Positions 578 through 17,903 of a stretch of 64,000 nucleotides of DNA are shown here, in pieces. The notes under the pieces are model-generated. The model was given only the letters and a program-made list of their open reading frames with translations. It was not told where the DNA came from and did not search any database. The translations under genes were made by a program, and so were the position numbers. The stretch covers positions 1 through 64,000 of the forward strand of contig NZ_JABMCJ010000092.1 of NCBI RefSeq assembly GCF_013359755.1, in the 5' to 3' direction. Origin of the DNA: Tardiphaga robiniae (GTDB taxonomy: Bacteria > Pseudomonadota > Alphaproteobacteria > Rhizobiales > Xanthobacteraceae). Positions within the stretch are counted from its first letter, which is position 1. The number at the start of each line of letters is the position of its first letter.

Positions 578-1579
578 CTACACCTTCACCATCCGCTTGC
601 CCCGGTTCTCACCGGCCAGCAGACCGATCAGTGCCTGCGGCGTGTTCTCCAGCCCGTCGATAACGTCTTCCTGGACCTTGAGCTTGCCGGCGGCGACCCA
701 GGACTGCAGATCGGTCAAAGCCTTTTCGCGCTGGTTCATGTAGTCCATCACGATGAAGCCCTGCATGATCAGGCGTTTCACCACGATCAGACCCGGCACG
801 CCGCGTGGGCCGGTCGCCGAGGGCGCGCCGTCATATTGCGAGATGGCGCCGCAGCAGGCGATGCGGCCGTTGAGATTCATTTGTGCGAGACAAGCCTCGA
901 GAATGTCGCCGCCGACATTGTCGAAATAGACGTCGATGCCACCCGGCGCTGCCGCCTTCAGCGCCTTGAACACCGCGCCGTCCTTGTAGTCCACCGCGGC
1001 ATCGAAGCCGAGTTCTTTGGTTAGCCAGTCGCATTTGTCCTTGCCGCCGGCGATGCCGATCACCCGGCAGCCCTTGATCTTGGCGATCTGGCCGACGATG
1101 GAGCCGACCGAGCCGGCCGCCGCCGAGACGACGACGGTCTCGCCTGCCTTGGGCTTGCCGACGTCCAGCAGGCCGAAATAGGCTGTAAGTCCGGCGATGC
1201 CATAGACGCTGAGCAGGTGCGTCATCGGCTCCATTGATGGCATCTTGTTGAGATGCTTGGCTGGCACCGCCGCGTAATTCTGCCAGCCGGTGTCGCCGAA
1301 CACGATGTCACCCGGCTTCAGCGCAGGAGACTTCGACGACACGACTTCGGCAATGCCGCCGCCCGCCATCACCGTATTGGCCTCGACCGCAGCGCGATAG
1401 GTCGCGCCATGCATCCATGCGCGATTGGCAGCGTCGAGCGAGATGTAACGCACGCGCAGCAGCGCTTCGCCATCTTTCGGCTCGGGAATCTGGCCCTTTG
1501 ATAGTTTGAAATGCTCGGGCCCCAATTTTCCTGTGGGCTTTTCGACGAGCAGCACCTGATGATTGACGGTGTCGGTCAT
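578..1579 (-). CDS. NADP-dependent oxidoreductase, MDR family (CurA/leukotriene B4 reductase-like)
   Basis: A 333-residue zinc-independent medium-chain dehydrogenase/reductase that probably reduces the C=C bond of an enone with NADPH in the cytoplasm. The N-terminal GroES-like half begins with the VEKPTGKLGPEHF segment typical of the CurA/PTGR group. The Rossmann half carries AAAGSVGSIVGQIAK near residue 150, followed by the VIGIAGG strand. The end reads RGKRMVKV, a normal family C-terminus. An upstream in-frame extension to 1636 exists, but the ATG at 1579 has AGGAGA at good spacing, so I chose it. The gene stands alone and is divergent from the symporter at 1814. The natural substrate is unknown. 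Confidence 0.9.
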   Translation of the reverse strand: MTDTVNHQVLLVEKPTGKLGPEHFKLSKGQIPEPKDGEALLRVRYISLDAANRAWMHGATYRAAVEANTVMAGGGIAEVVSSKSPALKPGDIVFGDTGWQNYAAVPAKHLNKMPSMEPMTHLLSVYGIAGLTAYFGLLDVGKPKAGETVVVSAAAGSVGSIVGQIAKIKGCRVIGIAGGKDKCDWLTKELGFDAAVDYKDGAVFKALKAAAPGGIDVYFDNVGGDILEACLAQMNLNGRIACCGAISQYDGAPSATGPRGVPGLIVVKRLIMQGFIVMDYMNQREKALTDLQSWVAAGKLKVQEDVIDGLENTPQALIGLLAGENRGKRMVKV

Positions 1580-1813
1580 GGCCGTTGTCTCCTTGTTTCT
1601 TCCTGTGTCGAAACTTGTTGCAGTCGCCGCGTACAAAACAATCAGACTGCACAGTTTTTGTAGTTGGCGATGACGCTATGCGGCAGCGCGGCATTCCACA
1701 ACGGCTATTTGCCGCCTGATGATACCGAAACGGTACGCGGCTGACGAAGCTTGTTGCGCGCTCTGATCAATATGACAGACTGTCGCAGTTGGGAATGTGT
1801 AACGGGGGACGGT

Positions 1814-3109
1814 ATGTCGAACAGGTTTACGCAATACATTCTGATCGCGATGGCGCTGGGCATCGTGATGGGCTCGCTGGTTTTCAACTATTTACCCGAT
1901 AGCCGCGTCGAGATCGCGGCCGACGTCAATCTGATCGCCATGTTGTTCCTGCGCCTGATCAAGATGATCATCGCGCCCCTGGTCTTCGCCACGCTGGTCG
2001 GCGGCATCGCCCATATGGGCTCGGGCTCCAAGCTCGGCCGCATCTTCGCCAAGACCATGGGCTGGTTCGTCAGTGCCTCCTTCATCTCGCTGCTGCTCGG
2101 CCTCGTGATGGTCAACCTGTTGCAGCCCGGCGCGAATTTCCCGGGAACGCTGCCGGCTGCGGGGCAATCGACGGGCCTGCCGGTGTCGGCTTTCTCCATC
2201 GAGAAATTCCTGACCCATTTGATCCCGACCTCCATCGCGGACGCGATGGCGCAGAACGAGATCCTGCAGATTGTTATCTTTGCCGTGTTCTTCGCAGTTG
2301 CGATGGGCGCCATGCCGGAACGCTCCAAGCCGATGCTGCAACTGATCGATGACCTCGGTCACATCATGCTGAAAGTGACGGGCTATGTGATGCTGTTCGC
2401 GCCGCTCGCGGTGTGGGCGGCGATCATGGCGACCGTGTCGAAGAATGGCCTCGGTGTGTTGTGGAAGCTGATCGTCTTCATGGGCGGTTTCTATCTGTCG
2501 CTGGCGATCCTGTGGGGCATTCTCGTGGTGGTCGGCTTCATCGTCATCGGGCCGCGCTACAGCCATCTGCTGCGGTTGATCCGCGAACCCTTGATGATCG
2601 CCTTCTCCACGGCAAGTTCGGAAGCGGCCTATCCGAAGACGCTGGAAGGCCTCAACCGTTTCGGGGCCTCGTCGCGCATCTCCAGTTTCGTGCTGCCGCT
2701 GGGCTACTCGTTCAATCTCGACGGCACGATGATGTATTGCACCTTTGCGAGCATTTTCATTGCGCAGACCTATCACATCGAAATGTCGCTCGGCACGCAG
2801 CTCGCGATGCTGGCAACGCTGATGATCACCTCGAAGGGCGTGGCCGGCGTGCCGCGGGCCTCGCTGGTGGTGATCGCGTCGACGCTCAGCCAGTTCAACA
2901 TTCCCGAAGCGGGCCTGTTGATGATTATGGGTATCGACACCTTCCTCGACATGGGCCGCAGCGCCACCAATGTGATCGGCAATTCGCTGGCCACGGCCGT
3001 GGTGGCGAAATGGGAGGGCGAACTCGCGCCCGAACATGAGCTCGGTCCCGACGATGTGGTGCCCGGCGACTTGATCCCTGGAGAAGTCCCCGCCCTCGGA
3101 CATGGTTGA
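1814..3109 (+). CDS. Dicarboxylate/amino acid:cation symporter (SDF family)
   Basis: A 431-residue inner-membrane secondary transporter of the DctA/GltP/EAAT fold that imports a dicarboxylate or acidic amino acid with Na+ or H+. The sequence is hydrophobic throughout. It carries the re-entrant loop signature STASSEAAYPKTLEGLNRFG, the cation/substrate segment GYSFNLDGTMMY, the second hairpin GVAGVPRASLVVIASTL, and the C-terminal GIDTFLDMGRSATNVIGN motif with the Asp and Asn ligands. The start at 1814 follows GGGGGA, whereas the longer frame from 1751 has no comparable signal. The next gene, five bases downstream, is a periplasmic amino-acid-type binding protein, an unusual partner for a secondary carrier. 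Glutamate, aspartate or succinate-like substrates are plausible. Confidence 0.93.
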   Translation: MSNRFTQYILIAMALGIVMGSLVFNYLPDSRVEIAADVNLIAMLFLRLIKMIIAPLVFATLVGGIAHMGSGSKLGRIFAKTMGWFVSASFISLLLGLVMVNLLQPGANFPGTLPAAGQSTGLPVSAFSIEKFLTHLIPTSIADAMAQNEILQIVIFAVFFAVAMGAMPERSKPMLQLIDDLGHIMLKVTGYVMLFAPLAVWAAIMATVSKNGLGVLWKLIVFMGGFYLSLAILWGILVVVGFIVIGPRYSHLLRLIREPLMIAFSTASSEAAYPKTLEGLNRFGASSRISSFVLPLGYSFNLDGTMMYCTFASIFIAQTYHIEMSLGTQLAMLATLMITSKGVAGVPRASLVVIASTLSQFNIPEAGLLMIMGIDTFLDMGRSATNVIGNSLATAVVAKWEGELAPEHELGPDDVVPGDLIPGEVPALGHG

Positions 3110-3114
3110 GGCCG

Positions 3115-4038
3115 ATGATGCGCCAGGCATGGACGACAGCGATATCGGGCGGGTTGTTGGCAGCGTGGCTGCTGACAACCGGCGCCGTGGCACAGACCGC
3201 GCGGGAGGGGCTTAGCCCCACCCTTGCCGCGATCAAGAAGTCGCGCACCGTTAAACTGGGTTATCGCGAAAGCTCACCGCCGTTCTCGTTCCTTGATCGG
3301 GCGGGTCACCCGATCGGCTACAGTCTCGAACTCTGCGAAGCCGTGGTCGAGGATATCGGCATCGAGGTCGATGATCACGCACTCAGGATCGAATATGTCA
3401 AGGTCACGTCGGATGATCGCATTCCCGCCGTGCTCGACGGCAAGATCGATCTCGAATGCGGAACGACCACTGCCAATGCCGAGCGGCGCAAGCTGGTCGC
3501 GTTCTCGCCATTGATGTTCGTCGCCGGTACCAAGCTGATGGTGCCGAAGACGACGAGCGCGGTCGCGCCGACCGACTTCAAGGGCAAGACCATTGTCGTT
3601 ACCAAAGGCACCACCAACGAGCAGGCGATGCATGCGGTCGACAAGAAGTTCAATCTCGGCCTCAACATCGTAGTCTCGCCCGATCACGAGCAGAGCTATC
3701 AGATGCTGGTCGACGGCAAGGCCGATGCCTTCGCGACCGACGATATCCTGCTGTCGGGTCTGATCGCGCGGCACAAGTCGCAGGACAAGTTCCGCGTCGT
3801 CGGCGATTACCTGTCCTACGATCCCTACGGCATCATGTTCCGCAAGGGTGAGCCGCAGCTTGCGGCTGTTGTCGAGCGCGCGTTTCGCCGGCTTGGCTCG
3901 AACCGTGATCTGATCCCGCTCTATAACAAATGGTTCGTCGCACGCCTGCCGACCGGCGAGCGTATGGGTGTCTCGATCTCGCCGCAGCTGGAAGAGAGCT
4001 TCAAGGTGTTGGACGATTCAGCGGGCGGGACGAATTGA
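3115..4038 (+). CDS. Periplasmic amino-acid-type substrate-binding protein (GltI/AatJ-like)
   Basis: About 307 residues of ABC-type solute-binding protein family 3. It has an N-terminal signal peptide (hydrophobic SGGLLAAWLLTTGAVAQ), then the family start VKLGYRESSPPFSFLD and GYSLELCEAVVEDI. These resemble glutamate/aspartate binding proteins. Later come DGKIDLECGTTTANAERR and KGTTNEQAM, also typical of GltI relatives. The start is ambiguous between ATGs at 3115 and 3118, and a TTG at 3106 overlaps the symporter stop. There is no ABC permease or ATPase beside it. The tight spacing to the SDF symporter implies one transcript and suggests it either feeds or senses the same substrate, but that link is inference. 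Confidence 0.88.
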   Translation: MMRQAWTTAISGGLLAAWLLTTGAVAQTAREGLSPTLAAIKKSRTVKLGYRESSPPFSFLDRAGHPIGYSLELCEAVVEDIGIEVDDHALRIEYVKVTSDDRIPAVLDGKIDLECGTTTANAERRKLVAFSPLMFVAGTKLMVPKTTSAVAPTDFKGKTIVVTKGTTNEQAMHAVDKKFNLGLNIVVSPDHEQSYQMLVDGKADAFATDDILLSGLIARHKSQDKFRVVGDYLSYDPYGIMFRKGEPQLAAVVERAFRRLGSNRDLIPLYNKWFVARLPTGERMGVSISPQLEESFKVLDDSAGGTN

Positions 4039-4076
4039 GGCTTAGCGTTCTTCATTAGGTCGATGGTACTATCAAA

Positions 4077-4195
4077 TGTCGTCCCCGCGAAGGCGGGGAC
4101 CCATACACGCCGATTTAAAGATTTGGCACTGTGGCTACGGCAGTTTCTAACCTCAGGCTCGGAGGTTATGGGTCCCCGCCTTCGCGGGGACGACA
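4077..4195. repeat. Paired palindrome repeat with 28-bp inverted ends (copy 1)
   Basis: The element has perfect 28-base inverted ends at 4077-4104 and 4168-4195. Each end is itself a hairpin (GTCCCCGC, four-base loop, GCGGGGAC). The 63-base middle is asymmetric. A second element with the same ends lies at 17782-17903 in the opposite orientation, so this is a dispersed repeat rather than a local terminator. It sits between the convergent ends of the binding-protein gene and the Mur-ligase-like gene, where it may also block read-through. Confidence 0.85.
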
Positions 4196-4216
4196 GCTGA
4201 GAGGCCGCTCAATCTC

Positions 4217-5536
4217 TCAAAAAAACACCAGATCCTGCGCCTTGCCGCCGCGCAGCACCGTGGCATATTCGATCGCCGCAAACAGTCCACCCGCCACATA
4301 GATTTTGCGCGGCACGGCGCGAGCGAGTTGCTGGCTGAGGCGCACCGCGTCTTCCATGGCATTGGCCACATGAATGCGCGCCGCCGGATGAGCCTTGCGC
4401 GCCGCGGCGCCCACCACGCGCGCGTCTGCGCCCTTGTGATAGGCGCGGGTGCACACGATCGTATCGAAGACGGGCGCGAGATGCTTGGCGATATCGTCGA
4501 CATTCTTGTCGCCGGAGACGCCGAGCACGAGCAACCAGTTGTCGTCGCCGTGGATGGCGCGAAGGCTCTTCAGGGCCTGCGCCACGCCATCGGGCGTATG
4601 GCCGACATCGATGACAGTCAGGGGATCGCGCTGAACGATCTCGAGCCGTCCTGGCCATCTGGTATCGCGCAGCCCGGTCCGGACCGCGAGATCGATGGCG
4701 CTGGTGGTCGCATCCGGATGCATGCGCTGCATCCAGAGAATGAACAGCGCAGCTGCAATGGCAGCATTGTTGAGCTGGAACTCGCCGGCCAGCATGAGTT
4801 CGAGCGCGCGCAGATCGAATGCGCCCAGCCGGCAGTTGAAAGCCTGGGCCTTGGATGATGCAAAGACGTTGCTGATCGTGATCTCGCCGCCGATATGCAG
4901 GCCGGTGACGTTGCGGTTGCGATTGTACTCGGCGAGATTGCCGCGCATGGGCAGGCAGTTCTCACCATAGACGACGGTGCCGCCCGAAATGCATGCATCG
5001 CTCTTGTCGCAGGCGATCAGCTCCAGCGAGTTGCCGAGCAGGTTGACGTGTTCGAGATCGACCGAGGTGACGCAGGTGATGTCGGCGCCGACCAGCCGAA
5101 CTGGATCGTAGCGTCCGCCGATGCCCGCCTCGAACACGGCGAATTCGCATTCGGTCTCCTGGAAATACAGGCAGGCCAGCGCGAACTGCGCCTCGAAGGC
5201 GCCGAAGGTTTCATGCAGCGTGTGCTGCTTGAGATCTGCGATGGCAGTGGCCACGCGCAGGACGAGGGCTTCCAGCAACTCGTCATCGACGGGTACGCCG
5301 TCAATCTGGAAGCGCTCATTGAAGCGATAGAGGTGCGGTGACGTGAACAAGCCTGTCCGCAGGCCGAAAGCGCGTCCGATGCTGGCGCAGAACGCCGCGG
5401 TCGAGCCCTTGCCGTTGGAGCCGGTGACGACCACGGAATGTTTGCGCAGCCTGACACGGTCGATGGACAGCGCGTCGAGCAGCATCGCCAGCCGGGCGAG
5501 GCATAGGCCGTCGCCATATTTGGGCAGGTTAAACAT
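4217..5536 (-). CDS. Mur-ligase/FolC-like amide ligase, second gene of a split CphA-like pair
   Basis: A 439-residue ATP-dependent ligase of the Mur ligase superfamily. The P-loop TGSNGKGST is at residues 38-46. FTSPHLYRFNERF and GIGGRYDPVRLV follow, then TSVDLEHVNLLG with the metal-site His. The Lys usually carbamylated in FolC sits in CDKSDA rather than the standard KAGI context. The C-terminal Rossmann part has TVIDVGHTPDG where folylpolyglutamate synthases normally read DGAHN. So the fold is FolC-like but several signatures have drifted. It overlaps the upstream ATP-grasp gene by 8 bases, implying translational coupling. Standard annotation would be FolC; I think a peptide or polyamino-acid ligase is equally likely because of the partner gene. 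Confidence 0.8.
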   Translation of the reverse strand: MFNLPKYGDGLCLARLAMLLDALSIDRVRLRKHSVVVTGSNGKGSTAAFCASIGRAFGLRTGLFTSPHLYRFNERFQIDGVPVDDELLEALVLRVATAIADLKQHTLHETFGAFEAQFALACLYFQETECEFAVFEAGIGGRYDPVRLVGADITCVTSVDLEHVNLLGNSLELIACDKSDACISGGTVVYGENCLPMRGNLAEYNRNRNVTGLHIGGEITISNVFASSKAQAFNCRLGAFDLRALELMLAGEFQLNNAAIAAALFILWMQRMHPDATTSAIDLAVRTGLRDTRWPGRLEIVQRDPLTVIDVGHTPDGVAQALKSLRAIHGDDNWLLVLGVSGDKNVDDIAKHLAPVFDTIVCTRAYHKGADARVVGAAARKAHPAARIHVANAMEDAVRLSQQLARAVPRKIYVAGGLFAAIEYATVLRGGKAQDLVFF

Positions 5537-6536
5537 CGAGCAGGCCGATCGCCGTAAATGTATGCCGCCAGATGCGCAGGATCAGATCCTCGCGGCCGCT
5601 GTCTTCGAGAAAGCGGATCGAGGGATTGGCATTGACCTCGATTACGCGCAAGGCCGCAGCATCGCCGTCGATATCCGTAAACAGGTCGACCGCGCCAGCG
5701 CGCAGGCCGAGCGCCTTGGCGGCCTGCAGCGCCATCGCAAAGGCAACAGTTTCGTTGCCCGGCGCCGCAAAGCTCATGCTGCCGCCTGCACTGCGATTCA
5801 TCCGGCCGGGAATCGCGCGCCGCTCGCCGTATGGCAGCACGCGATCGAGGGAGGTGTCATCGAGACCTGTGGCGGCCGACGAAATCCCGTGGCGGTCCAG
5901 CGCGGACGTCTCCGCGGCGATCAATTGCCTGAGCGTCGCTTTGCTGTCGCCCGTCACAAAGGGCGCCGTCTTCTGCGCGCAATACACGACCTCGTCGTCG
6001 AGGATGAACACGCGATATTCCTGGCCGGTATAGATGCGCTGCATCAGGATCGCGTCATAATACTGCGCGACCTGCTTGAGATAGGCCATCAGCGCGTCGC
6101 CGCCCGTGACAATCTCCGCAAAGTCGCCGCGCGATCCCATCAGCGGCTTGATGAAGGCCCGGTCGCCGAGTTCGGCGAAATGCCAGACGGCGTCAGCATG
6201 TTCGTGACCGGGCGGGCGATGGGCGCGATAACGCTCATGCAGGAAGAAGTATTTCCCGCCCAAAGTCGGGACGCCGGCGCGCTCCATCAGCACATTGGCG
6301 AAATACTTGTCATTCGCCAGCGTCGCAGCCGTGGCGTTGTTCTGCGGAAAGAACGAGCCGCGTCCGGCGCCGAAGGATGCGCTTCTGCCGTTGCGGCCGA
6401 CAGTGAAGATCAGGCCCGTTCCGCCATCGACGTCGGCGAAATCCAGCCTGAACTGGCGGCAAGCGTATTCGGCATAGATCGACTGGTCGGGATAGGATGG
6501 GGGCTTTCCAGCCCGGATGTCGCGAAGGGATGTCAT
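5529..6536 (-). CDS. ATP-grasp ligase resembling the central domain of cyanophycin synthetase
   Basis: A 335-residue ATP-grasp enzyme. Its landmarks follow the cyanophycin synthetase (CphA) ATP-grasp domain in order: DKYFANVLMERAGVPT near residue 78, FIKPLMGSRGDF near 129, YTGQEYRVFILDDEVVYCAQ near 190, an NRSAGGSMSF stretch matching the CphA NLSTGG element, and the metal-binding EVNANPSIRF near the end. These enzymes activate a carboxylate as acyl phosphate and attack it with an amine. Only about 75 residues precede the ATP-grasp core, far fewer than in CphA. The ATG at 6536 is chosen; a TTG lies just before it, and neither has a clear ribosome site. It is the first gene of a two-gene operon with the Mur-ligase-like gene. 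Confidence 0.8.
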   Translation of the reverse strand: MTSLRDIRAGKPPSYPDQSIYAEYACRQFRLDFADVDGGTGLIFTVGRNGRSASFGAGRGSFFPQNNATAATLANDKYFANVLMERAGVPTLGGKYFFLHERYRAHRPPGHEHADAVWHFAELGDRAFIKPLMGSRGDFAEIVTGGDALMAYLKQVAQYYDAILMQRIYTGQEYRVFILDDEVVYCAQKTAPFVTGDSKATLRQLIAAETSALDRHGISSAATGLDDTSLDRVLPYGERRAIPGRMNRSAGGSMSFAAPGNETVAFAMALQAAKALGLRAGAVDLFTDIDGDAAALRVIEVNANPSIRFLEDSGREDLILRIWRHTFTAIGLLDV

Positions 6537-6910
6537 CAAGGACCAGGCCGACGATTGAACGAAAAGCCGCCTGCGACGACTTTAACGAGGTGGCCGGAAA
6601 CTACCGGATCGGGATCGGGTGATCCAGCCGGATACCATTAACGGTGTCCGGCAAGAAACTGAACGAAACCTCCCATATCGGGTAATTTAATGTCGCGGCC
6701 AGATGGGCTGCTGCTGCATGGGTAACCTGCTTTGGAAATTAATCGACCGCCTCCCTCAGTCCGCAATTGCACTTCATGGCTACTTTGACTAATTGTCATT
6801 CGCAGCTGCGAGAACCAAAATTAGCCAATAGCCGCAATGGTTTCTCGGCATCGTGACGCGGCAAACAATGGACTTGTTCTAAAAAAGCCCGCACTGGAAA
6901 ATCAGATCTC
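6537..6910. other. Divergent intergenic region between the ATP-grasp gene and fpr
   Basis: These 374 bases hold no credible gene. They must contain the promoters for both divergent units. A TTGACT near 6787 could be a -35 element for the + strand, but I see no matching -10 at 16-18 bases. Short dyads such as GGATCGGGATCGGGTGATCC near 6606-6625 are present without a known consensus. The 3' part is A/T richer than its surroundings, as expected for a promoter. Confidence 0.4.
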
Positions 6911-7684
6911 ATGAGCGCCTTTCACAGAGAGAAAGTTCTTTCCGTCCAGCATTGGACCGATACACTTTTCAGCTTCAAAGCCACCCGCGACACCTCGTTC
7001 CGCTTCCAGAACGGCCAGTTCGCCATGATCGGCCTGGAAATCGATGGCAAGCCGCTGCTGCGTGCCTATTCGATGGCCAGCGCGAACCATGAGGAAGAAC
7101 TCGAGTTTTTCTCGATCAAGGTACCGGATGGCCCGCTGACCTCGCGCCTGCAGAAGATCAAGGAAGGCGACACCATCCTGGTCGCGCGTAAGGCGGTGGG
7201 CACGCTGGTCACCGACAGTCTGCTGCCGGGCAAACGCCTTCTCATGCTGTCGACCGGCACCGGTCTCGCGCCCTTTGCCAGCCTGATCAAGGATCCCGAA
7301 GTCTATGAGCAGTACGAGCAGGTCGTGCTGGTGCATGGCTGCCGGCAGGTCTCGGAGCTGGCCTATGGCGAGCGCTTGGTCGAACGACTCCAGAAGGACG
7401 AGCTGTTCGGGGAGCTGATGAAGGACAAGTTCACCTATTATCCAACGGTCACCCGCGAGCCCTTCCGCAATCGCGGCCGCATCACCGACCTGATCGAGTC
7501 CGGCCAGATCTTCAAGGATATCGGCCAGGGCCTGCTCGACATCACCATCGACCGCGTCATGCTGTGCGGCAGTCCGGCGATGCTCGAAGACCTGAAGGTC
7601 ATGTTTGAGAAGCGCGATTTCACCGAAGGCAGCGGCAACAAGCCCGGTCATTTCGTGATCGAGAAGGCTTTCGTCGAGCGCTAA
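6911..7684 (+). CDS. fpr: Ferredoxin--NADP reductase
   Basis: A 257-residue cytoplasmic FAD enzyme that moves electrons between NADPH and ferredoxin or flavodoxin. It is often tied to oxidative stress and Fe-S or nitrogen metabolism. The FAD-binding RAYSMAS is at residues 51-57, with the phosphate-side loop PDGPLTSRLQ after it. The NADP-binding STGTGLAPFASL is near 111-122, and CGSPAMLEDLK is in the C-terminal half. The protein ends HFVIEKAFVER, which matches the bacterial Fpr class with a short C-terminal extension beyond the core. Length is normal. A strong intrinsic terminator follows at 7719, so the gene is probably monocistronic. Confidence 0.95.
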   Translation: MSAFHREKVLSVQHWTDTLFSFKATRDTSFRFQNGQFAMIGLEIDGKPLLRAYSMASANHEEELEFFSIKVPDGPLTSRLQKIKEGDTILVARKAVGTLVTDSLLPGKRLLMLSTGTGLAPFASLIKDPEVYEQYEQVVLVHGCRQVSELAYGERLVERLQKDELFGELMKDKFTYYPTVTREPFRNRGRITDLIESGQIFKDIGQGLLDITIDRVMLCGSPAMLEDLKVMFEKRDFTEGSGNKPGHFVIEKAFVER

Positions 7685-7718
7685 GGCAGCCCGACACCAT
7701 CGAAATGCACTGCACTGC

Positions 7719-7745
7719 AAAACCCGCGCTCCGGCGCGGGTTTTG
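7719..7745 (+). terminator. Intrinsic terminator of fpr
   Basis: The stem CCCGCGC at 7723-7729 and its complement at 7734-7740 enclose a four-base loop and are flanked by AAAA before and TTTT after. It begins about 35 bases after the fpr stop codon. The symmetric A and T tracts could also give weak termination on the other strand. Confidence 0.85.
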
Positions 7746-7896
7746 TCGTCTGGGTCCCTCGCTTTTTGCAACGATTCATTGAGCGTGGCCCGATAGATTG
7801 GGCATTCTGGCGCGATGCTCTGCGGCAACGCGCTTGTGATGTTTGCGTCATCGGGTCTGTGTAACGCTAGCGCCATTCATGTCAGGCAGGATTTTT

Positions 7897-9537
7897 ATGG
7901 AAACGTTGATGCTTCCCCTCTCGCCGCGCTTCATCGTTTTGACGATCTGCGGGGTCGCAACCTTGCTGCTGGTCGGCATCGGCATTCACGACCCGAAAGT
8001 CATCCCTCTCGTTGTCATCCCGGTCATCGTCTTCGGCGGCCTGACCGTGCTTGGCATTCACGACGTGCTCCAGAAGGACCATGCGGTTCTGCGCAACTAT
8101 CCGATCTCGGCGCATATCCGCTTCCTGCTCGAAGAAATCCGTCCGGAGATGCGGCAGTATTTCTTCGAGAGCGAAAAGGATGGCATGCCGTTCAGCCGCG
8201 ACACCCGCGCGGTGGTCTATCAGCGTGCCAAGATGGTGCTCGACAAGCGTCCCTTCGGCACCCAGAAGAACGTCTACGAAGAGGGCTATGAGTGGATGCA
8301 CCATTCGGTCGCGCCGCGGCCGCATGCGACTGAGCAGTTCCGCATCACCATCGGCGGCCCGGATTGCCTCAAGCCTTATTCGGCTTCGGTACTGAACATC
8401 TCGGCTATGAGCTTTGGTGCACTCAGCCCCAATGCGATCCGCGCGCTGAATGCTGGCGCCAAGCGTGGTGAATTCGCGCATGACACTGGAGAAGGCGGCG
8501 TCAGTCCGTATCATCAGGAGAACGGCGGCGACCTGATCTGGGAGGTCGGCTCCGGCTATTTTGGTTGCCGCACGCGTGATGGCAACTTCGATCCCGACGC
8601 CTTCGCGAAGCTTGCCGTCAACGATCAGATCAAGATGGTCGAGCTCAAGATCAGCCAGGGCGCAAAGCCGGGCCACGGTGGCGTGTTGCCGGCGGCAAAA
8701 GTGTCGGAAGAAATCTCGCGCATCCGCGGCGTCGCCATGGGCGAGGACTGTATCTCACCAGCCTATCACAAGGCGTTTTCAACACCAATCGAGATGATGG
8801 AGTTCATCGACAAGATGCGCCGTCTGTCCGGCGGTAAGCCCGCCGGCTTCAAGCTGTGCATCGGTCATCCCTGGGAATTTCTCGCGATCTGCAAGGCGAT
8901 GCTGCAGACCGGCATCTATCCGGATTTCATCGTGGTCGATGGCAATGAAGGCGGCACGGGCGCGGCGCCGCTGGAGTTCATGGATCATTTGGGCATGCCG
9001 ATGCGCGAGGGCGTCAACTTCGTGCACAATGCGCTGATCGGCATCGGCGCGCGTGACCGCATCAAGATTGGCGCCTCCGGCAAGATCGCAACCGCCTTCG
9101 ATATCGCCCGCGCCATGGCGCTCGGTGCCGACTGGTGTAATTCGGCGCGCGGCTTCATGTTCGCACTAGGTTGCATCCAGTCACTGAGCTGCCACACCGA
9201 TCGTTGCCCGACCGGCGTCACGACGCAGGACCCCACGCGCAATCGCGCCCTCGCTGTGCCTCAGAAGACCGATCGCGTTTACAACTATCACGAGGCGACG
9301 TTGCATGCGCTGGCTGAGCTGATCGCGGCAGCCGGGCTCGCTCATCCGCAGGATATTCGTCCGATCCATTTCTCGCATCGCGCCTCCAGCACGGATGTTC
9401 TGTCCTTCACGCGGATGTATCCGGCGCTGCGCCACAACGAGCTGGTCGATGGCACCGGCGACAAGCGCTTTCGCGATGCATGGGAGATGGCGCAAGCGGG
9501 CTCGTTCCTGCCGGCGGCCCTGGAACGTTCGGCCTAG
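7897..9537 (+). CDS. FMN-binding glutamate-synthase-like protein (GltB central domain family)
   Basis: About 546 residues. Two hydrophobic segments at the N-terminus (roughly residues 8-28 and 33-52) suggest membrane anchoring. The rest is the TIM-barrel FMN and Fe-S domain of glutamate synthase. Landmarks are ISAMSFGALSPNAIRALN, GEGGVSPYHQENGGDLIWE, GAKPGHGGVLPAAKV, DGNEGGTGAAPLEFMDH and the cluster-binding CHTDRCPTGV. The amidotransferase and beta-subunit domains are absent, so it is not a complete GOGAT. Relatives are often annotated FMN-binding glutamate synthase family with unproven activity. The ATG at 7897 follows CAGGA at good spacing, and earlier in-frame ATGs at 7843 and 7879 lack one. 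Confidence 0.88.
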   Translation: METLMLPLSPRFIVLTICGVATLLLVGIGIHDPKVIPLVVIPVIVFGGLTVLGIHDVLQKDHAVLRNYPISAHIRFLLEEIRPEMRQYFFESEKDGMPFSRDTRAVVYQRAKMVLDKRPFGTQKNVYEEGYEWMHHSVAPRPHATEQFRITIGGPDCLKPYSASVLNISAMSFGALSPNAIRALNAGAKRGEFAHDTGEGGVSPYHQENGGDLIWEVGSGYFGCRTRDGNFDPDAFAKLAVNDQIKMVELKISQGAKPGHGGVLPAAKVSEEISRIRGVAMGEDCISPAYHKAFSTPIEMMEFIDKMRRLSGGKPAGFKLCIGHPWEFLAICKAMLQTGIYPDFIVVDGNEGGTGAAPLEFMDHLGMPMREGVNFVHNALIGIGARDRIKIGASGKIATAFDIARAMALGADWCNSARGFMFALGCIQSLSCHTDRCPTGVTTQDPTRNRALAVPQKTDRVYNYHEATLHALAELIAAAGLAHPQDIRPIHFSHRASSTDVLSFTRMYPALRHNELVDGTGDKRFRDAWEMAQAGSFLPAALERSA

Positions 9538-9543
9538 ATTATC

Positions 9544-9620
9544 GTAGCCCGGATAGCGCTGCGGTATCCGGGACCGTGCGTGTGGCGATCCCGGATTATC
9601 GCTGCGCTCATCCGGGCTAC
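9544..9620. repeat. GTAGCCCGGA palindromic repeat
   Basis: GTAGCCCGGA at 9544-9553 is inverted at 9611-9620, and the interior contains ATCCGGG-type blocks in both directions (9575-9582 and 9588-9594). Repeats with this wording are common between genes in Bradyrhizobium-like genomes. It lies between convergent genes (FMN protein and porin), where it may serve as a bidirectional transcript end. Confidence 0.75.
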
Positions 9621-9640
9621 AAACGGCGCAGGATGTGTCG

Positions 9641-11626
9641 TCAGAACTCGCCGTGCAATCGGCCTGAGAAGATCGAGACCGGCCCGCGATCCTTGTTATA
9701 GGCAGGGTTCGCAATCAGCTGGTAGTCGGCCGTGAGGGTGAAGTTCTTGTCGATGGCATAGGCGTAATAGGTTTCGAGAATGCGCTCGGTGCCGTAATTT
9801 AGCCGTCCGTCGCCGATCAGCAATCCGTTGCCGCCAGCGGCGAGGAAGTCGCGATGCGCAGCGGACAGGCCGTTGATCGCGCCGCCAAGGCCGATCGTGT
9901 CATTGGCGCGGCCCCAATGGCTACCCTTGATCGAGACGCCAGCAGAGACGCTGCGGTCGATATCGGTGAAGGACAGGATCTCGTTCTGGCCATCGTTCCA
10001 GCTGACGCGGCCGAAGATGCCGACGTCAGTGGCAACCTGCTGCTCACCGTTGACGTAGAAGCCGTATTTATCGCTGGCGCGGCGGATCGAGGACATCACG
10101 TCGTTGATATCCAGCGTGGGATCATTGGCCTCGATCGCCAGTGCGCCGCGATAGCTGCCGGTATTGCCGCGATTGATGAAGGCACCGACGCGCAACTTGC
10201 CGGGCTGGTCGAAGATCTGGTGACGCTCCTCGAATTCGACGACCGCGCCGCCAGTCTTGAAGGTCAGGACGTCGTTGTTAGGCTGCGCCGGCACTTGAAA
10301 CAGGCCGGCTCGGATCGCCCACTCCTTGCGGTTCAGTTCAACGATGGCGCCGCGGGTGAAGCCCGGCAGGTCGGCTGGAAAGTCGTAAGCGGCCGATGAC
10401 CACATTGCCCAGTTCATGAAGTCGGCGCGCGGATCCTTGGCGTAGGAATTGCCATCGAAGAAATCACCCACCGCGAAGCGTCCGACCGTGAGCGTGATGC
10501 GGTCGATATCGCGCTTGCCTGCCAATTGATTGGCGGCGTCGGGGACGTCTTCCTGCTCGCCGCCGAGGCCAAGTGTCTGGCGGAAGTAATAGCGCTGCAT
10601 CCGAAAGCGCGGAAACGGCGCGCCGCCCTTTTGCGCCTCGCCATTGGGGAAGCCGGCGAGGCCGAGCGTGGAGTTGAGGCCGAAGCCCTGCGCCAGCTCG
10701 GGATTGAGATAGAGCTCACCGCCCTGCCACAGTCGCCAGCCGAGGAACGCCGTCGTCGTAAAGGTCTCGCGCCCTTGGCCGCCGCCAGGAAGGCTGTTGG
10801 TGCCTTCATAGGGCGAGCGAATCCGCGGATAGGCGGACGCGATGAAAGTGGTCTGGGCGTGAACGTTCCAGTCTGTCGATTCCGGCAGCACAATCTTGCC
10901 GGTGATGGGAGCTGACGGCAACCACGGCGGCGTGTCCCACAGCCGATAATTCAAGCCGACTTTGACGGTGTGAATATTCGGATCAACGCTCACATTCGGC
11001 AGCCCGGCATTGCCGAGGTCATAGGTCTGCCGCATCAAATCGAGATAGGCGTATTCGGCCTTCGCGGTCCAGTTGCCGCCAACGGCAAATTCGACGCCCG
11101 CGCCGGCGGTCCAGCCGAAACGGGTGCGGGTCGCTGATGATATGAGGTCGCCGTCGGCATCATTGAGATTGAGCTTGGTGCGTCCCCACGCCACGCCACC
11201 GGTGAAGTAAGGCATCAACGCGCCGAAGGCGTAGCCGATGCGGCCACGTGCGGTCGCAAAATAGTCGAAGGTCGTATGGAAAGGCGCTGGCATCAACCGC
11301 GCTGCGTCCTGCGGACTGCTGAACGTGGCGTCGGCCTCGAAGCCCAGCACGACGTTGTTGCTGAGCTGCCTGTTGTAGCCGATCTGGTAGCCGCCGATCA
11401 GGCCGGTCGGCGAAGGCGGCAGGAAAACGCCCTGCGCGGGCAGCGGATTGCTGCCGGGACCAAAGCTGCCGCCGCCATAGCCGATGTGACCGCCGAGATA
11501 AAACCCGGTCCAGTCGTAAACCAGGCGGGGCGCTTTCAGCGCCATGCCGGGCGAAATATCGGCCGCGATCGCAGAGCCATCGAACGCCAATGCGCCCAGC
11601 GCAAAACCGGCCAAAACGCGCTTCAC
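9641..11626 (-). CDS. Double-barrel outer-membrane protein: Omp25/31-like domain fused to OprB-type porin
   Basis: 661 residues with a signal peptide ending near AIAAD (residue 22). Residues about 35-230 look like an Omp25/Omp31-type eight-stranded barrel: DWTGFYLGGHIGYGGGSFG, IGYNRQLSNNVVLGFEAD, GRIGYAFGALMPYFTGG, AKAEYAYLDL and the end VKVGLNYRL. Residues about 245-661 look like a carbohydrate-selective OprB-type porin: WNVHAQTTFIASAYPRIRSP, GELYLNPELAQGFGL, RITLTVGRFAVGDFFDGN, and a last strand ending GRLHGEF with terminal Phe. Each half would form its own barrel, so this is an unusual two-barrel protein, or one barrel plus an accessory. The start is GTG. Transport of sugars or small polar solutes is inferred from the OprB half. 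Confidence 0.85.
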   Translation of the reverse strand: MKRVLAGFALGALAFDGSAIAADISPGMALKAPRLVYDWTGFYLGGHIGYGGGSFGPGSNPLPAQGVFLPPSPTGLIGGYQIGYNRQLSNNVVLGFEADATFSSPQDAARLMPAPFHTTFDYFATARGRIGYAFGALMPYFTGGVAWGRTKLNLNDADGDLISSATRTRFGWTAGAGVEFAVGGNWTAKAEYAYLDLMRQTYDLGNAGLPNVSVDPNIHTVKVGLNYRLWDTPPWLPSAPITGKIVLPESTDWNVHAQTTFIASAYPRIRSPYEGTNSLPGGGQGRETFTTTAFLGWRLWQGGELYLNPELAQGFGLNSTLGLAGFPNGEAQKGGAPFPRFRMQRYYFRQTLGLGGEQEDVPDAANQLAGKRDIDRITLTVGRFAVGDFFDGNSYAKDPRADFMNWAMWSSAAYDFPADLPGFTRGAIVELNRKEWAIRAGLFQVPAQPNNDVLTFKTGGAVVEFEERHQIFDQPGKLRVGAFINRGNTGSYRGALAIEANDPTLDINDVMSSIRRASDKYGFYVNGEQQVATDVGIFGRVSWNDGQNEILSFTDIDRSVSAGVSIKGSHWGRANDTIGLGGAINGLSAAHRDFLAAGGNGLLIGDGRLNYGTERILETYYAYAIDKNFTLTADYQLIANPAYNKDRGPVSIFSGRLHGEF

Positions 11627-11934
11627 GACAATACTCGCGATCGGTCGGGGTACTTCATGCGGCCGTCATTTCTCACTCTAGGTCGCCGCTGATCATGCGA
11701 CGAACCGTTTGATATTCCACAAAAATAGTCGATTCGCCCATAACGTTGGGGGTATCGAGGGTCGTCATGAGACAAAACGAAACAGAACGAGCAACCTGTC
11801 GACTCCCTGACTATAATTGCAACTAATTCGCAATAGCAAGAAGCAACTGGAGAAGCATGTTTCAGTGGCAGCCGATCATGACGGTTGGATAACAGCAGCT
11901 GGCCGGCACGGCTCGAAAGGCATTTGGCGAGCGC
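11627..11934. other. Upstream region of the double-barrel porin gene
   Basis: No gene is supported. The region is AT-richer than its neighbours around 11755-11850 and probably carries the porin promoter reading on the minus strand, together with its 5' leader. I could not pick out a clear -35/-10 pair or a known operator. It ends at the terminator of the small secreted-protein gene. Confidence 0.4.
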
Positions 11935-11973
11935 AAAAAAAATGACCCGCTCGGGGGGACAACCGAGCGGGTC
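11935..11973 (-). terminator. Intrinsic terminator of the small secreted-protein gene
   Basis: On the minus strand an 11-bp stem (11944-11954 paired with 11963-11973, GACCCGCTCGG arms) with an 8-base loop is followed by eight T residues (11935-11942). It lies about 65 bases after the stop of the gene at 12039-12299. It is a textbook rho-independent terminator. Confidence 0.92.
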
Positions 11974-12038
11974 TGGTGCGACACGGGGTGGATGAGGCGC
12001 CCGTGTCGGACGCAAATCCACGTCAGTCGATCAAGAGA

Positions 12039-12299
12039 TTAGTAGTTGCAGGTCCGGACGCGGCCGACATAGTTGCCGTAGCCGTCATACTGGCGGACCC
12101 AACCGCAGCGATATCCGTAACCGTAGTAGCCGTTATTGGCGGCAATGGCGCTGCCGACGACTGCGGCGCCGACTACACCGGCAGCGATGCCGAAGCCGAT
12201 GCCCGGGCCCTTGGCCTGAGCCTGCTGGGACGATGCCACGGTGCCGGCAGCGGTGAGAGCAACGAGTGCGAAAGCAGCAATCTTGGACTTGATCGACAT
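12039..12299 (-). CDS. Small secreted Gly/Tyr-rich protein
   Basis: 86 residues. A signal peptide (MSIKSKIAAFALVALTAAG, cleaved near AQAKG at about 30) precedes a hydrophobic Gly/Ala segment GIGFGIAAGVVGAAVVGSAI, then a Tyr/Gly-rich tail with two Cys residues (RCGW and TCNY). Short proteins of this composition are common and uncharacterised in Hyphomicrobiales. The Gly/Ala segment could be a membrane helix, so it may be a surface or envelope-associated protein rather than a soluble one. GGAG precedes the ATG at 12299. A strong terminator follows, so it is transcribed alone. Confidence 0.8.
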   Translation of the reverse strand: MSIKSKIAAFALVALTAAGTVASSQQAQAKGPGIGFGIAAGVVGAAVVGSAIAANNGYYGYGYRCGWVRQYDGYGNYVGRVRTCNY

Positions 12300-12490
12300 G
12301 GGATAACTCCATCCTGTTGAAGTGCAGCCATCGTGGCCTGCATGCCAATCAGTCGGAGCCCAAACGGATCGGGTTCGAGACCAGGTCGAACTATTTGGTT
12401 TCAGGCAAATTCTTTTGGTTTCAGAATCGTGTCGTCATCCGCGCGGAATATGTCGTCGTGTGAATCGCGCAATCCACGGTTAACCACATC

Positions 12491-13312
12491 TCACGCGTCG
12501 GCATCCGGTTCGCGATCAAACGCTGTCACGTCGAAGCGATGCATGTCCGCGAGTAGTTCGCAGAACGCTTTTGAGCCATGTGCCAGCAGTTTCTCGCCCT
12601 TGTCGGCTGATGCCTGCGTGGCGTCGCCAATAGCGCCGCTGGGATGCAGATCTTCGGCCTGCCACGCGAATGGCGCGGGCCGGCTTGCGGACAGCCAGCG
12701 ATAATTCTTCTCCATTGCAATCGCCGACGATGCGAAGTTTGCGATCTTGTCGTTGCGCACATGCTGCGGATAGCGCGCCAGCATGATCGATGTTTCCACG
12801 GCGCCGCCATGAATCCCGTGACGCAATTCTTCGTCGGTGAACAGGCCATCCGGCGCACCGAACCGATTCCATCCGGTGGTGGCGACCAGCATGCCGTATT
12901 CGGCGCGCAAGTCCTGCGCCGCGAGCGTCATCGCTGCGCTGTTGCCGCCGTGACTGGTCACGATCACGAGTTTCTGAACACCAGCGCGCGCGACGCTTTC
13001 GCCGATCGCAGTCCAGGTCTGCAATGCGATCTCGGTCGGCAGAGTCAGCGTACCGGGAAAGGCGAGGTGCTCGGTTGAAATGCCCACAGGTTGAAGCGGC
13101 AGAAATGTCGCCGGAATATCGGCGGGCAGCAGGCGCTGGACCTCTGCAAGATAAGCCTCCGCAATCATGATGTCCGTGCCGAGAGGCAGATGCGGTCCGT
13201 GCTGCTCGGTCGCGGCGAGCGGCAGCACTGCAATCCAGGAGGCCGGATCGCTCTGGGCGATGTCGGGCCAGTGAATGGCAGTCCAGTCGCGGGGCGGCAT
13301 GTTGGCAGTCAT
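12491..13312 (-). CDS. Creatininase-family amidohydrolase
   Basis: 273 residues of the creatininase/creatinine amidohydrolase fold, metal-dependent hydrolases that open cyclic or linear amides. Metal-site motifs are intact: ATEQHGPHLPLGTD at 34-47 (Glu36, His38, Asp47), TSHGGNSAAM in the middle and GIHGGAVETSIML near 165-180 (second His and Glu). The gene is divergent from an NMT1-type ABC importer, 88 bases apart, so the two units probably share a control region and the importer may supply the hydrolase substrate. Members act on creatinine, mycofactocin precursors, formamidopyrimidines or similar compounds, and the sequence does not tell which. Confidence 0.9.
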   Translation of the reverse strand: MTANMPPRDWTAIHWPDIAQSDPASWIAVLPLAATEQHGPHLPLGTDIMIAEAYLAEVQRLLPADIPATFLPLQPVGISTEHLAFPGTLTLPTEIALQTWTAIGESVARAGVQKLVIVTSHGGNSAAMTLAAQDLRAEYGMLVATTGWNRFGAPDGLFTDEELRHGIHGGAVETSIMLARYPQHVRNDKIANFASSAIAMEKNYRWLSASRPAPFAWQAEDLHPSGAIGDATQASADKGEKLLAHGSKAFCELLADMHRFDVTAFDREPDADA

Positions 13313-13400
13313 CGAGGTGCGTTTCTTTGGTCAATTTTGCAGGGTAGTCTGGCAGCAGATTGCTTCCTATCATGGGCCATAACGGTCGACGGAGTCCAAT

Positions 13401-14423
13401 ATGAGCCCGATATCCCTGCTGCGCGCGTTAACCATTGGCGCACTGGCCGTGATGGCCGCGCAGTCGCCCGCCACAGCGGAAACCAGGCTCGACAAGGTCA
13501 GTTTCGGCACCAACTGGGTGGCCGAGGCTGAACATGGCGGCTTCTTCCAAGCGGTCGCGGATGGTACCTACAAGAATTACGGGCTCGACGTCACCATCGT
13601 GCCGGGCGGGCCGAACGTGAACAATCGCATCCTGTTGATCTCGGGCAAGCTCGACTTCTTCATGAGCGCGAACACGCTGCAGTCCTTCGATGCCGTCGCC
13701 AATAATGTGCCGGTGGTCGCTGTCGCCGCGATCTTCCAGAAGGACCCGCAGGTCTTTCTGGCGCATCCCAATCCCAAGGTGACCAAGCTCGAAGATCTCA
13801 AGCCGATGACGCTGCTGATCTCGAAGGAGGGCGTCGCCGGCTATTTCCAATGGATGCGATCCGAGCTTGGCTTCAGCGCGTCCAAGGTCAAGCCTTACAC
13901 CTATAATGCGCAGCCTTTCATCGTCGACAAGAATAGCGCGATGCAGGGCTATGTCACATCCGAGCCGTTCGTGGTCGAGAAGCAGGCCAATTTCAAGCCA
14001 ACCGTGATGCTGCTCGCGGATTACGGGTTCGATGGCTATTCGACATTGATCGAAACGCGCCGCGAATGGGTCGACAAGAAGCCGGACCTTGTCCAGCGTT
14101 TCGTCGATGCCTCGATGATTGGCTGGTACAACTATCTCTATGGTGACAACAAAGCCGCCAATGAGGTCATCAAGAAGCTCAACCCGGAAATGACCGATGA
14201 CCTGCTGGCCTATTCCATCGCCAAGATGAAGGAATACGGTATCGTCGACTCAGGTGACACGCTGAAAGACGGCATCGGTGCCATGAGCGAAGCGCGTGTT
14301 GCCAGCTTCTTCGACAAGATGTCACGCGCAGGCGTGGTCAAGCGCGATATCGACTATCGCAAGGCCTATACACTGCAGTTCATCAACAAGGGTGTCGGTC
14401 TCGATCTCCGGCCGAAGAAGTAG
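13401..14423 (+). CDS. ABC transporter substrate-binding protein, NMT1/SsuA-like
   Basis: 340 residues. The signal peptide ends near PATAE (about residue 27). The mature protein belongs to the NMT1/THI5/SsuA periplasmic binding group, with VSFGTNWVAEAEHGGFFQA near 32 and YGLDVTIVPGGPNVNNRILL after it, then DFFMSANTLQSFD. Members bind thiamine-pyrimidine precursors, aliphatic sulfonates, nitrate, riboflavin or pyrimidine-type compounds. It is the first gene of a unit with an ATPase and a permease (14432-16071) and faces the creatininase gene. An N-heterocyclic or amide-bearing ligand would fit that neighbour, but this is inference. Confidence 0.92.
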   Translation: MSPISLLRALTIGALAVMAAQSPATAETRLDKVSFGTNWVAEAEHGGFFQAVADGTYKNYGLDVTIVPGGPNVNNRILLISGKLDFFMSANTLQSFDAVANNVPVVAVAAIFQKDPQVFLAHPNPKVTKLEDLKPMTLLISKEGVAGYFQWMRSELGFSASKVKPYTYNAQPFIVDKNSAMQGYVTSEPFVVEKQANFKPTVMLLADYGFDGYSTLIETRREWVDKKPDLVQRFVDASMIGWYNYLYGDNKAANEVIKKLNPEMTDDLLAYSIAKMKEYGIVDSGDTLKDGIGAMSEARVASFFDKMSRAGVVKRDIDYRKAYTLQFINKGVGLDLRPKK

Positions 14424-17781: not shown

Positions 17782-17903
17782 TGTCGTCCCCGCGAAAGCG
17801 GGGACCCATAACCACGGCATGCGCAATTGTAACGGCGAGCCACGACGACAGCACTCCAAATGACCCGCGGCGTGTATGGGTCCCCGCTTTTGCGGGGACG
17901 ACG
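17782..17903. repeat. Paired palindrome repeat with 28-bp inverted ends (copy 2)
   Basis: The ends at 17782-17809 and 17876-17903 match each other with two differences and are nearly identical to the ends of the element at 4077-4195. The inner edges are swapped (ACCCATAACC on the left here, GGTTATGGGT on the right in copy 1), so the two copies lie in opposite orientation. The middle is 66 bases, only loosely similar to copy 1. It fills most of the gap between the Inh-domain gene and the Sel1 gene. Confidence 0.85.

Follow-up and report, generated by a model that had tools for sequence, protein, structure and literature searches.

Amide bond formation through acyl phosphates is common to the cyanophycin synthetases (CphA; PMC9262961, PMC9427784) and the folylpolyglutamate synthases (FPGS, encoded in bacteria by folC; PMC10861534). 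In CphA1 a single gene encodes an N domain of about 160 residues, an ATP-grasp 'G' domain and then a Mur-type 'M' domain, the last described as MurE-like in the work that also supplies the residue map of TeCphA1 and the role of the catalytic P-loop histidine, His267 (PMC9427784). ATP-grasp ligases can also add glutamate to cofactors, as do the RimK/MptN/CofF enzymes and the MyfA/MyfB ligases, which build the glutamate chain of methylofuran (PMC8141765); the portions of those sources available for MyfA/MyfB and MptN mention no FolC-like partner. Among the matches listed in literature searches, no pair consisting of an ATP-grasp enzyme and a FolC enzyme is described in titles and abstract openings.

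Here, a pair of that composition is described in Tardiphaga robiniae. It had originally been predicted to be a cyanophycin-synthetase-like ligase split over two overlapping genes, and to make an unusual peptide or polyamino acid rather than to act in folate polyglutamylation.

Organization and conservation of the gene pair

The pair lies in a 64,000-nucleotide stretch of DNA, termed the window (Table 1). The predicted arrangement, in which the ATP-grasp gene is followed with an 8-base overlap by the Mur-ligase gene, agrees with the open reading frames and with the shared ATGTTTAA, and both genes are intact and conserved in related genomes. The tight overlap suggests that the two proteins are equally expressed and probably share a substrate, and the genes are probably translated together.

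Table 1. Features of the ATP-grasp/FolC-like locus in the window
Feature	Position	Strand	Basis or remark
Gene for the ATP-grasp ligase P0001 (335 aa), first of the pair	5529..6536	-	ORF; ATG 6536, stop 5529-5531
Gene for the FolC-like Mur ligase P0002 (439 aa), second of the pair	4217..5536	-	ORF; ATG 5536, stop 4217-4219
8-nt stop/start overlap of the pair, ATGTTTAA	5529..5536	-	sequence
Mur P-loop GSNGKGS, residues 39-45 of P0002	5402..5422	-	sequence; coordinates counted from start codon
ATP-grasp P-loop residue R136 (GSRGDF), at the cyanophycin synthetase His267 position	6129..6131	-	alignment; coordinates counted from start codon
Palindromic element GTCCCCGCGAAGGCGGGGAC, two copies (4081-4100 and 4172-4191)	4081..4191	.	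3' of the pair, between convergent genes

The two copies of GTCCCCGCGAAGGCGGGGAC behind the pair may represent a terminator or a REP-like sequence; a terminator scan did not report them. A second pair of copies is found at 17786-17899 in the opposite orientation, the copies in each pair being about 90 bases apart, and the four matches in the window at no more than two mismatches compare with 0.01 expected from shuffling.

The pair is conserved well beyond this contig. In a sample of 61 whole genomes (its own, 17 others of the genus, and the remainder from the family and order), a strong match to the ATP-grasp protein (E <1e-120) was found in 17, and the same 17 carry the FolC-like partner at 64-100% identity; no strong match occurred without a close partner, which argues that the pairing is not a matter of chance. 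At a threshold of 1e-3, 28 of the 61 genomes gave some match, the remaining 11 being weak. Within the genus 16 of 18 genomes contain the pair, the other two being an 81% complete assembly with short fragments only (G004) and a 77% complete one with none (G008). A scan of genome_contigs gave at least 17 named loci, from Tardiphaga, Bradyrhizobium sp. NFR13, Rhodopseudomonas and metagenome-assembled genomes of Xanthobacteraceae or other groups, all 17 with both genes; ten of them coincide with contigs already in the 61-genome sample, and seven are new. The 8-nucleotide overlap is found in 15 of these 17 loci, with a single shared nucleotide in one (L053) and an 8-nucleotide gap in another (L057).

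The window neighbours include a ferredoxin-reductase-like gene, a glutamate-synthase-like gene, a dicarboxylate symporter and a solute-binding protein. The block of reductase, glutamate-synthase-like gene and oxidoreductase around the pair is largely syntenic among relatives, so these neighbours say little about function. In 11 of the 17 named loci the oxidoreductase follows the pair and the symporter and binding-protein genes are missing (five loci have them, and at L042 the contig ends), and a functional tie of the pair to its window neighbours is accordingly not supported. Among the eight neighbouring window proteins (Pfam, 1e-5; window 581-14420) there is no folate gene and, in contrast to the cphA cluster of Sphingobium, no asparaginase and no cyanophycinase, the absence of the last having already been remarked.

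The ATP-grasp protein

CphA models rank first and second among the NCBIfam matches of the ATP-grasp protein and also match all 12 members of a diverse family set; residues 66-308 align to CphA 204-450, with the ATP-grasp motifs in the predicted CphA order. CphA is thus the best named family for this protein, as expected, at a score nonetheless far below that family's cut-off (E 5.6e-20; 71.1 bits versus 877). The N-terminal part is short, as foreseen, with 65 residues before the match in place of the CphA N domain. Weaker matches were obtained to RimK (rimK_fam, 41.9 bits, below the cut-off of 143.4), N-acetylglutaminylglutamine synthetase, MptN (39 bits, below the cut-off of 350), GshAB and D-Ala-D-Ala ligase, and the CofF model gave none, so that the resemblance to the cofactor ligases is accompanied by scores far below their cut-offs and by greater nearness to CphA. 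Pfam returned sub-threshold matches only (R2K_2, RimK, R2K_3 and D-Ala ligase).

An AF2 model of the protein (mean pLDDT 85, pTM 0.83) was closest in Foldseek to structures of GshAB, CphA1 and CphA2, with GshAB 3ln6 at the top; the best 17 structure matches gave TM scores of 0.46-0.65 by model length at 14-20% identity. The ATP-grasp domains of GshAB/GshF and of N-acetylglutaminylglutamine synthetase belong to the same ATP-grasp group, but the protein studied here has a single domain, and the accessible part of the GshF literature gives Tyr or Phe at the P-loop position at which it has R136.

When the protein is compared with the TeCphA1 residue map, K261, R309, N394, S396, D431, E450 and R458 are kept, K replaces R323 and S replaces G456; by its own numbering K130, R175, D284, E300 and N302 are kept. 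The residues of the G domain for ATP, magnesium and the acyl phosphate are therefore in place, and across the family set K261, R309 and D431 are kept in all 12 members and E450 in 11. The positions that hold the incoming aspartate in CphA are kept or similar (N394 = N247, S396 = S249, R323 = K189, R458 = R308). Of the 12 members, R458 is kept in the six that belong to the window's block; the motif with N394 and S396 may, we presume, be a general feature of ATP-grasp proteins of this group. At the His267 position ten of the 12 family members have Arg and the other two Gly and Leu. A phmmer alignment to TeCphA1 places a two-residue gap at this loop, which is without His either way.

In an ATP-grasp tree of 49 rows (midpoint-rooted, with several long branches), the 16 rows of the family group together (95/86), away from both the CphA group (95/97) and a group of enzymes of about 600 amino acids (95/85), the latter a further difference from the GshAB/GshF and N-acetylglutaminylglutamine synthetase type. 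Paired and solo members are poorly separated in this tree (40/64).

The FolC-like protein

The Mur half is FolC-like and has a P-loop, as had been predicted: it scores 241.3 bits against TIGR01499 (folC), above the cut-off of 162.65, and 34.1 bits against the CphA model. Its AF2 model (mean pLDDT 86, pTM 0.86) finds FPGS/FolC structures as all of its best 16 matches, with TM scores of 0.74-0.81 by model length, and MurE next. The proposed alteration of two signatures is also seen, KAGI reading KSDA and DGAHN reading DVGHT; E. coli FolC has DVAHN, so that the V is ordinary and the real change is from N to T.

A second, canonical folC, which it had been proposed to look for in the same genome, is found there on another contig (C7) behind accD, with a score of 370 bits; by eye, a phosphoesterase-like gene alone separates it from trxA. 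A role of the FolC-like protein as the housekeeping folC is rejected on this ground. The automatic name would mislead here, since the protein lies above the cut-off for 'bifunctional protein FolC' and yet the genome also holds a canonical FolC. In a FolC tree of 52 rows (L145, L135 and L132 left out; two Mur rows as outgroup), 22 FolC-like proteins paired with an ATP-grasp gene form one clade (99/94) and 28 other FolC proteins another (98/89), long branches meeting at these two forks according to the program's warning. By this sequence evidence the protein is a FolC paralogue, and not an orthologue of the housekeeping enzyme.

The residues that distinguish the two groups were compared between 29 FolC-like rows (28 different sequences; 26 of the 29 rows from the window's block) and 29 other FolC rows, with E. 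coli FolC added and its numbers used here. All 29 FolC-like rows keep the P-loop N/G/K/G (N41, G42, K43 and G44 in P0002, identical in all 29 other FolC as well), E146, H173, K188, R289, D302 and H305, and likewise Phe124, Glu125 and Asp154. All 29 have switched T122 to G (G112 in P0002), N157 to R (R147 in P0002), D29 to G, D172 to E, E187 to D, G190 to D, N306 to T or S, and S403 to G, and A155 is also changed. Among the other FolC, T122, N157, D172, N306 and S403 are fixed in all 29 rows, D29 and G190 in 26, and E187 in 25.

We take T122, D154 and N157 to line the folate pocket, and F124, A155 and D154 to be among the pterin-contacting residues. A review, in the part consulted, has the pterin stacked against Phe, Ala, Ile and Leu and bonded to a conserved Asp (PMC4790348), and the available portions of three further papers (PMC10812664, PMC2877875, PMC10861534) hold no residue-numbered folate contacts. 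Some of the switched positions probably lie in the folate pocket, and the altered positions suggest, from sequence comparison, a head group other than ordinary folate; the changes at T122, N157, D29 and A155 mean that this group may not be a pterin.

One row of both the tree and the residue count comes from a second folC region in a metagenome-assembled genome (G012, contig C22; L184), which is syntenic with that of another genome discussed below (G064) and is probably contamination.

With both halves in hand, the description of the locus as a cyanophycin synthetase split over two genes can be set aside, on the grounds that the ATP-grasp scores fall far below the CphA cut-off, that the N domain and His267 are missing, that the ATP-grasp family forms a separate clade and that the Mur half is of the FolC rather than the MurE type. 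It is a different matter whether two proteins assembled independently might act as an analogue of that enzyme, and so make a free peptide, or a branched polyamide, in which acidic residues are combined with other amino acids. The order of the catalytic types, the standing of the CphA models as best matches of the ATP-grasp protein and their match to every member of the family set, the aspartate-holding residues and the alteration of positions conserved in folate FolC would all suit such an analogue, as would the lack of a separate cphA: a search of the own genome with the ATP-grasp protein at 1e-3 matched only its own gene, and the same search did match CphA-sized frames in two other genomes (G023 and G035). 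Against it stand the missing N domain, the change of His267 to Arg, the position outside the CphA group and the lack of asparaginase or cyanophycinase among the eight neighbours scanned, and it would leave unexplained the folate operons described below; we regard it as possible but unlikely.

The wider family and its folate neighbourhoods

Two profiles of the ATP-grasp protein were used, A1 built from the window's block only and A3 containing in addition the sequences of six further genomes. In 385 genomes of Alphaproteobacteria, A1 found those six (G100, G127, G183, G287, G064 and G166) at 141-220 bits, the next scores being 98 or less. With A3 seven genomes scored above 430 bits and the next 177, a gap that is partly a matter of construction because A3 contains the scored sequences. 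In a sample of the phylum (n=398), only the window and two genomes of its family (G618 and G634) exceeded 430 bits; the next score, 144 bits, belonged to a CphA-sized frame. The members fall into six lineages: the window's Nitrobacteraceae/Xanthobacteraceae block, G100, G183 with G287, G064, G127 and G166. Searches of the orders around G183 (two genomes), G064 (96) and G100 (one) gave no new members at 1e-25. In G307 (L084 8184-10378), two overlapping tandem ATP-grasp frames are distant relatives of the family.

The gene immediately after the ATP-grasp gene is FolC-like in G100, G183, G287, G618 and G634; no FolC-like gene was seen beside it in G064, G127 or G166, although the G127 contig ends some 185 bases beyond the ATP-grasp gene. 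In G183 (L080 6523-11540) the order is accD, canonical folC, a gap of 15 nucleotides, the ATP-grasp gene and the FolC-like gene, with trxA convergent, so that the pair sits between folC and trxA; G287 is compatible with this order but broken between contigs. In G064 (L082 6076-9876), thyA overlaps the ATP-grasp gene by 4 nucleotides and folA lies about 1.5 kb further on (thyA and folA both identified with Pfam), with a GNAT gene (by eye) also downstream of the ATP-grasp gene. These folate contexts were noticed after the fact and concern two of the six lineages only; no folate neighbour was recognised in the stretches read of G100, G127, G166 (by eye) and the window. The original exclusion of folate was thus too strong: the position of the ATP-grasp gene behind folC or overlapping thyA speaks against it, and what stands is the alteration of folate-FolC positions in the FolC-like protein.

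The folate operons of G183 and G064 could also mean that the FolC-like protein is no more than a further folylpolyglutamate synthase, with the ATP-grasp enzyme extending the same tail by alpha-linked glutamate. Its FolC fold and TIGR01499 score, the retention of Phe124, Glu125 and Asp154, and the alpha linkages reported for E. coli folate tails in the accessible part of PMC1971073 are consistent with this. The switches at T122, N157 and the KAGI positions are not, and in genomes that already have a canonical folC there is no gap to be filled: the window's genome has one, and a FolC match above 300 bits was found in nine of ten genomes searched (one of the nine, G307, having only the distant ATP-grasp relatives); a second synthase of this kind therefore seems rather improbable.

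For G127 alone, the ATP-grasp enzyme might be a candidate substitute for FolC, this genome having DHPS and no folC above the cut-off in an assembly rated 100% complete; that reading is tentative because the gene lies at a contig end, beside what appears by eye to be the end of an IS-type transposase (L079, L185).

A mobile origin of the pair was considered and rejected. The window's ATP-grasp protein has no plasmid match at 1e-10 and no phage match at 1e-4 (tblastn), an IMG/VR scan with profile A3 gave no relative, and other queries gave distant matches only: three plasmid records at about 31% identity for the ATP-grasp protein of G100, three phage records at about 28% for that of G166, and 40 plasmid records for the FolC-like protein, the best 20 of the 40 being at 28-34% identity and mostly labelled folP or folylpolyglutamate synthase. 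Two Rhizobium plasmids (L191 5833-6882 and L192 5833-6882) carry a solo CphA-type ATP-grasp gene of 349 amino acids with two small hypothetical genes behind it; on one of the two plasmids it is annotated as cyanophycin synthetase despite its short length.

Modification of a specialised metabolite, or of a protein or peptide, would fit the patchy distribution outside the window's own group and the weak, below-cut-off Pfam matches to R2K-clade ATP-grasp proteins. No biosynthetic, export or precursor-peptide gene is consistently attached to the pair, however, and the block is mostly shared synteny; such a role appears very unlikely.

Proposed function

Profiles, trees and residue comparison agree on the core of the original prediction, namely two types of amide ligase in CphA order with an unusual FolC half. 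The pair may work somewhat like CphA, in that two ligase types act in series, and it is not a member of that family. We tentatively favour, at rather less than even confidence, a two-enzyme amide-ligase module whose most likely acceptor is the tail of a folate-type or similar small-molecule cofactor and not a storage polymer.

Each enzyme is predicted to use ATP to convert a carboxylate into an acyl phosphate, to which an amino acid is then joined. For the FolC-like enzyme the expected step, by analogy with FolC, is addition of a Glu-like residue at a gamma (side-chain) or head-group carboxylate; for the ATP-grasp enzyme it is attachment of an acidic residue at a different carboxylate, alpha or C-terminal, on the model of the CphA G domain and MptN. 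The reaction order is inferred, as are the acidic residue, from the aspartate-holding positions kept in the ATP-grasp protein, and the folate-type acceptor, from the folate operons of relatives together with FolC ancestry. With MptN and MyfA/MyfB as precedents, an ATP-grasp step on a cofactor would be chemically ordinary.

A more specific form of this favoured reading would have the FolC paralogue and the CphA-type ATP-grasp enzyme taking turns on the same folate-type cofactor, so that its acidic tail becomes branched or mixes alpha and gamma linkages. This form is doubtful; no paper among the literature searched contains such a tail-building system. We know of no E. coli gene to which the alpha linkages in folate tails have been assigned, and a mixed-tail system, if real, would be a candidate, at the genetic level, for the source of non-gamma linkages in bacterial folates. 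The favoured reading, if right, would mean that a duplicated folate enzyme and an ATP-grasp partner have been recruited into a new two-step ligase, and the genes would then give ready genetic access to modified cofactor tails or to a new peptide product. The locus represents a clean, conserved pair of enzymes, as yet unnamed, whose possible link to folate can be tested.
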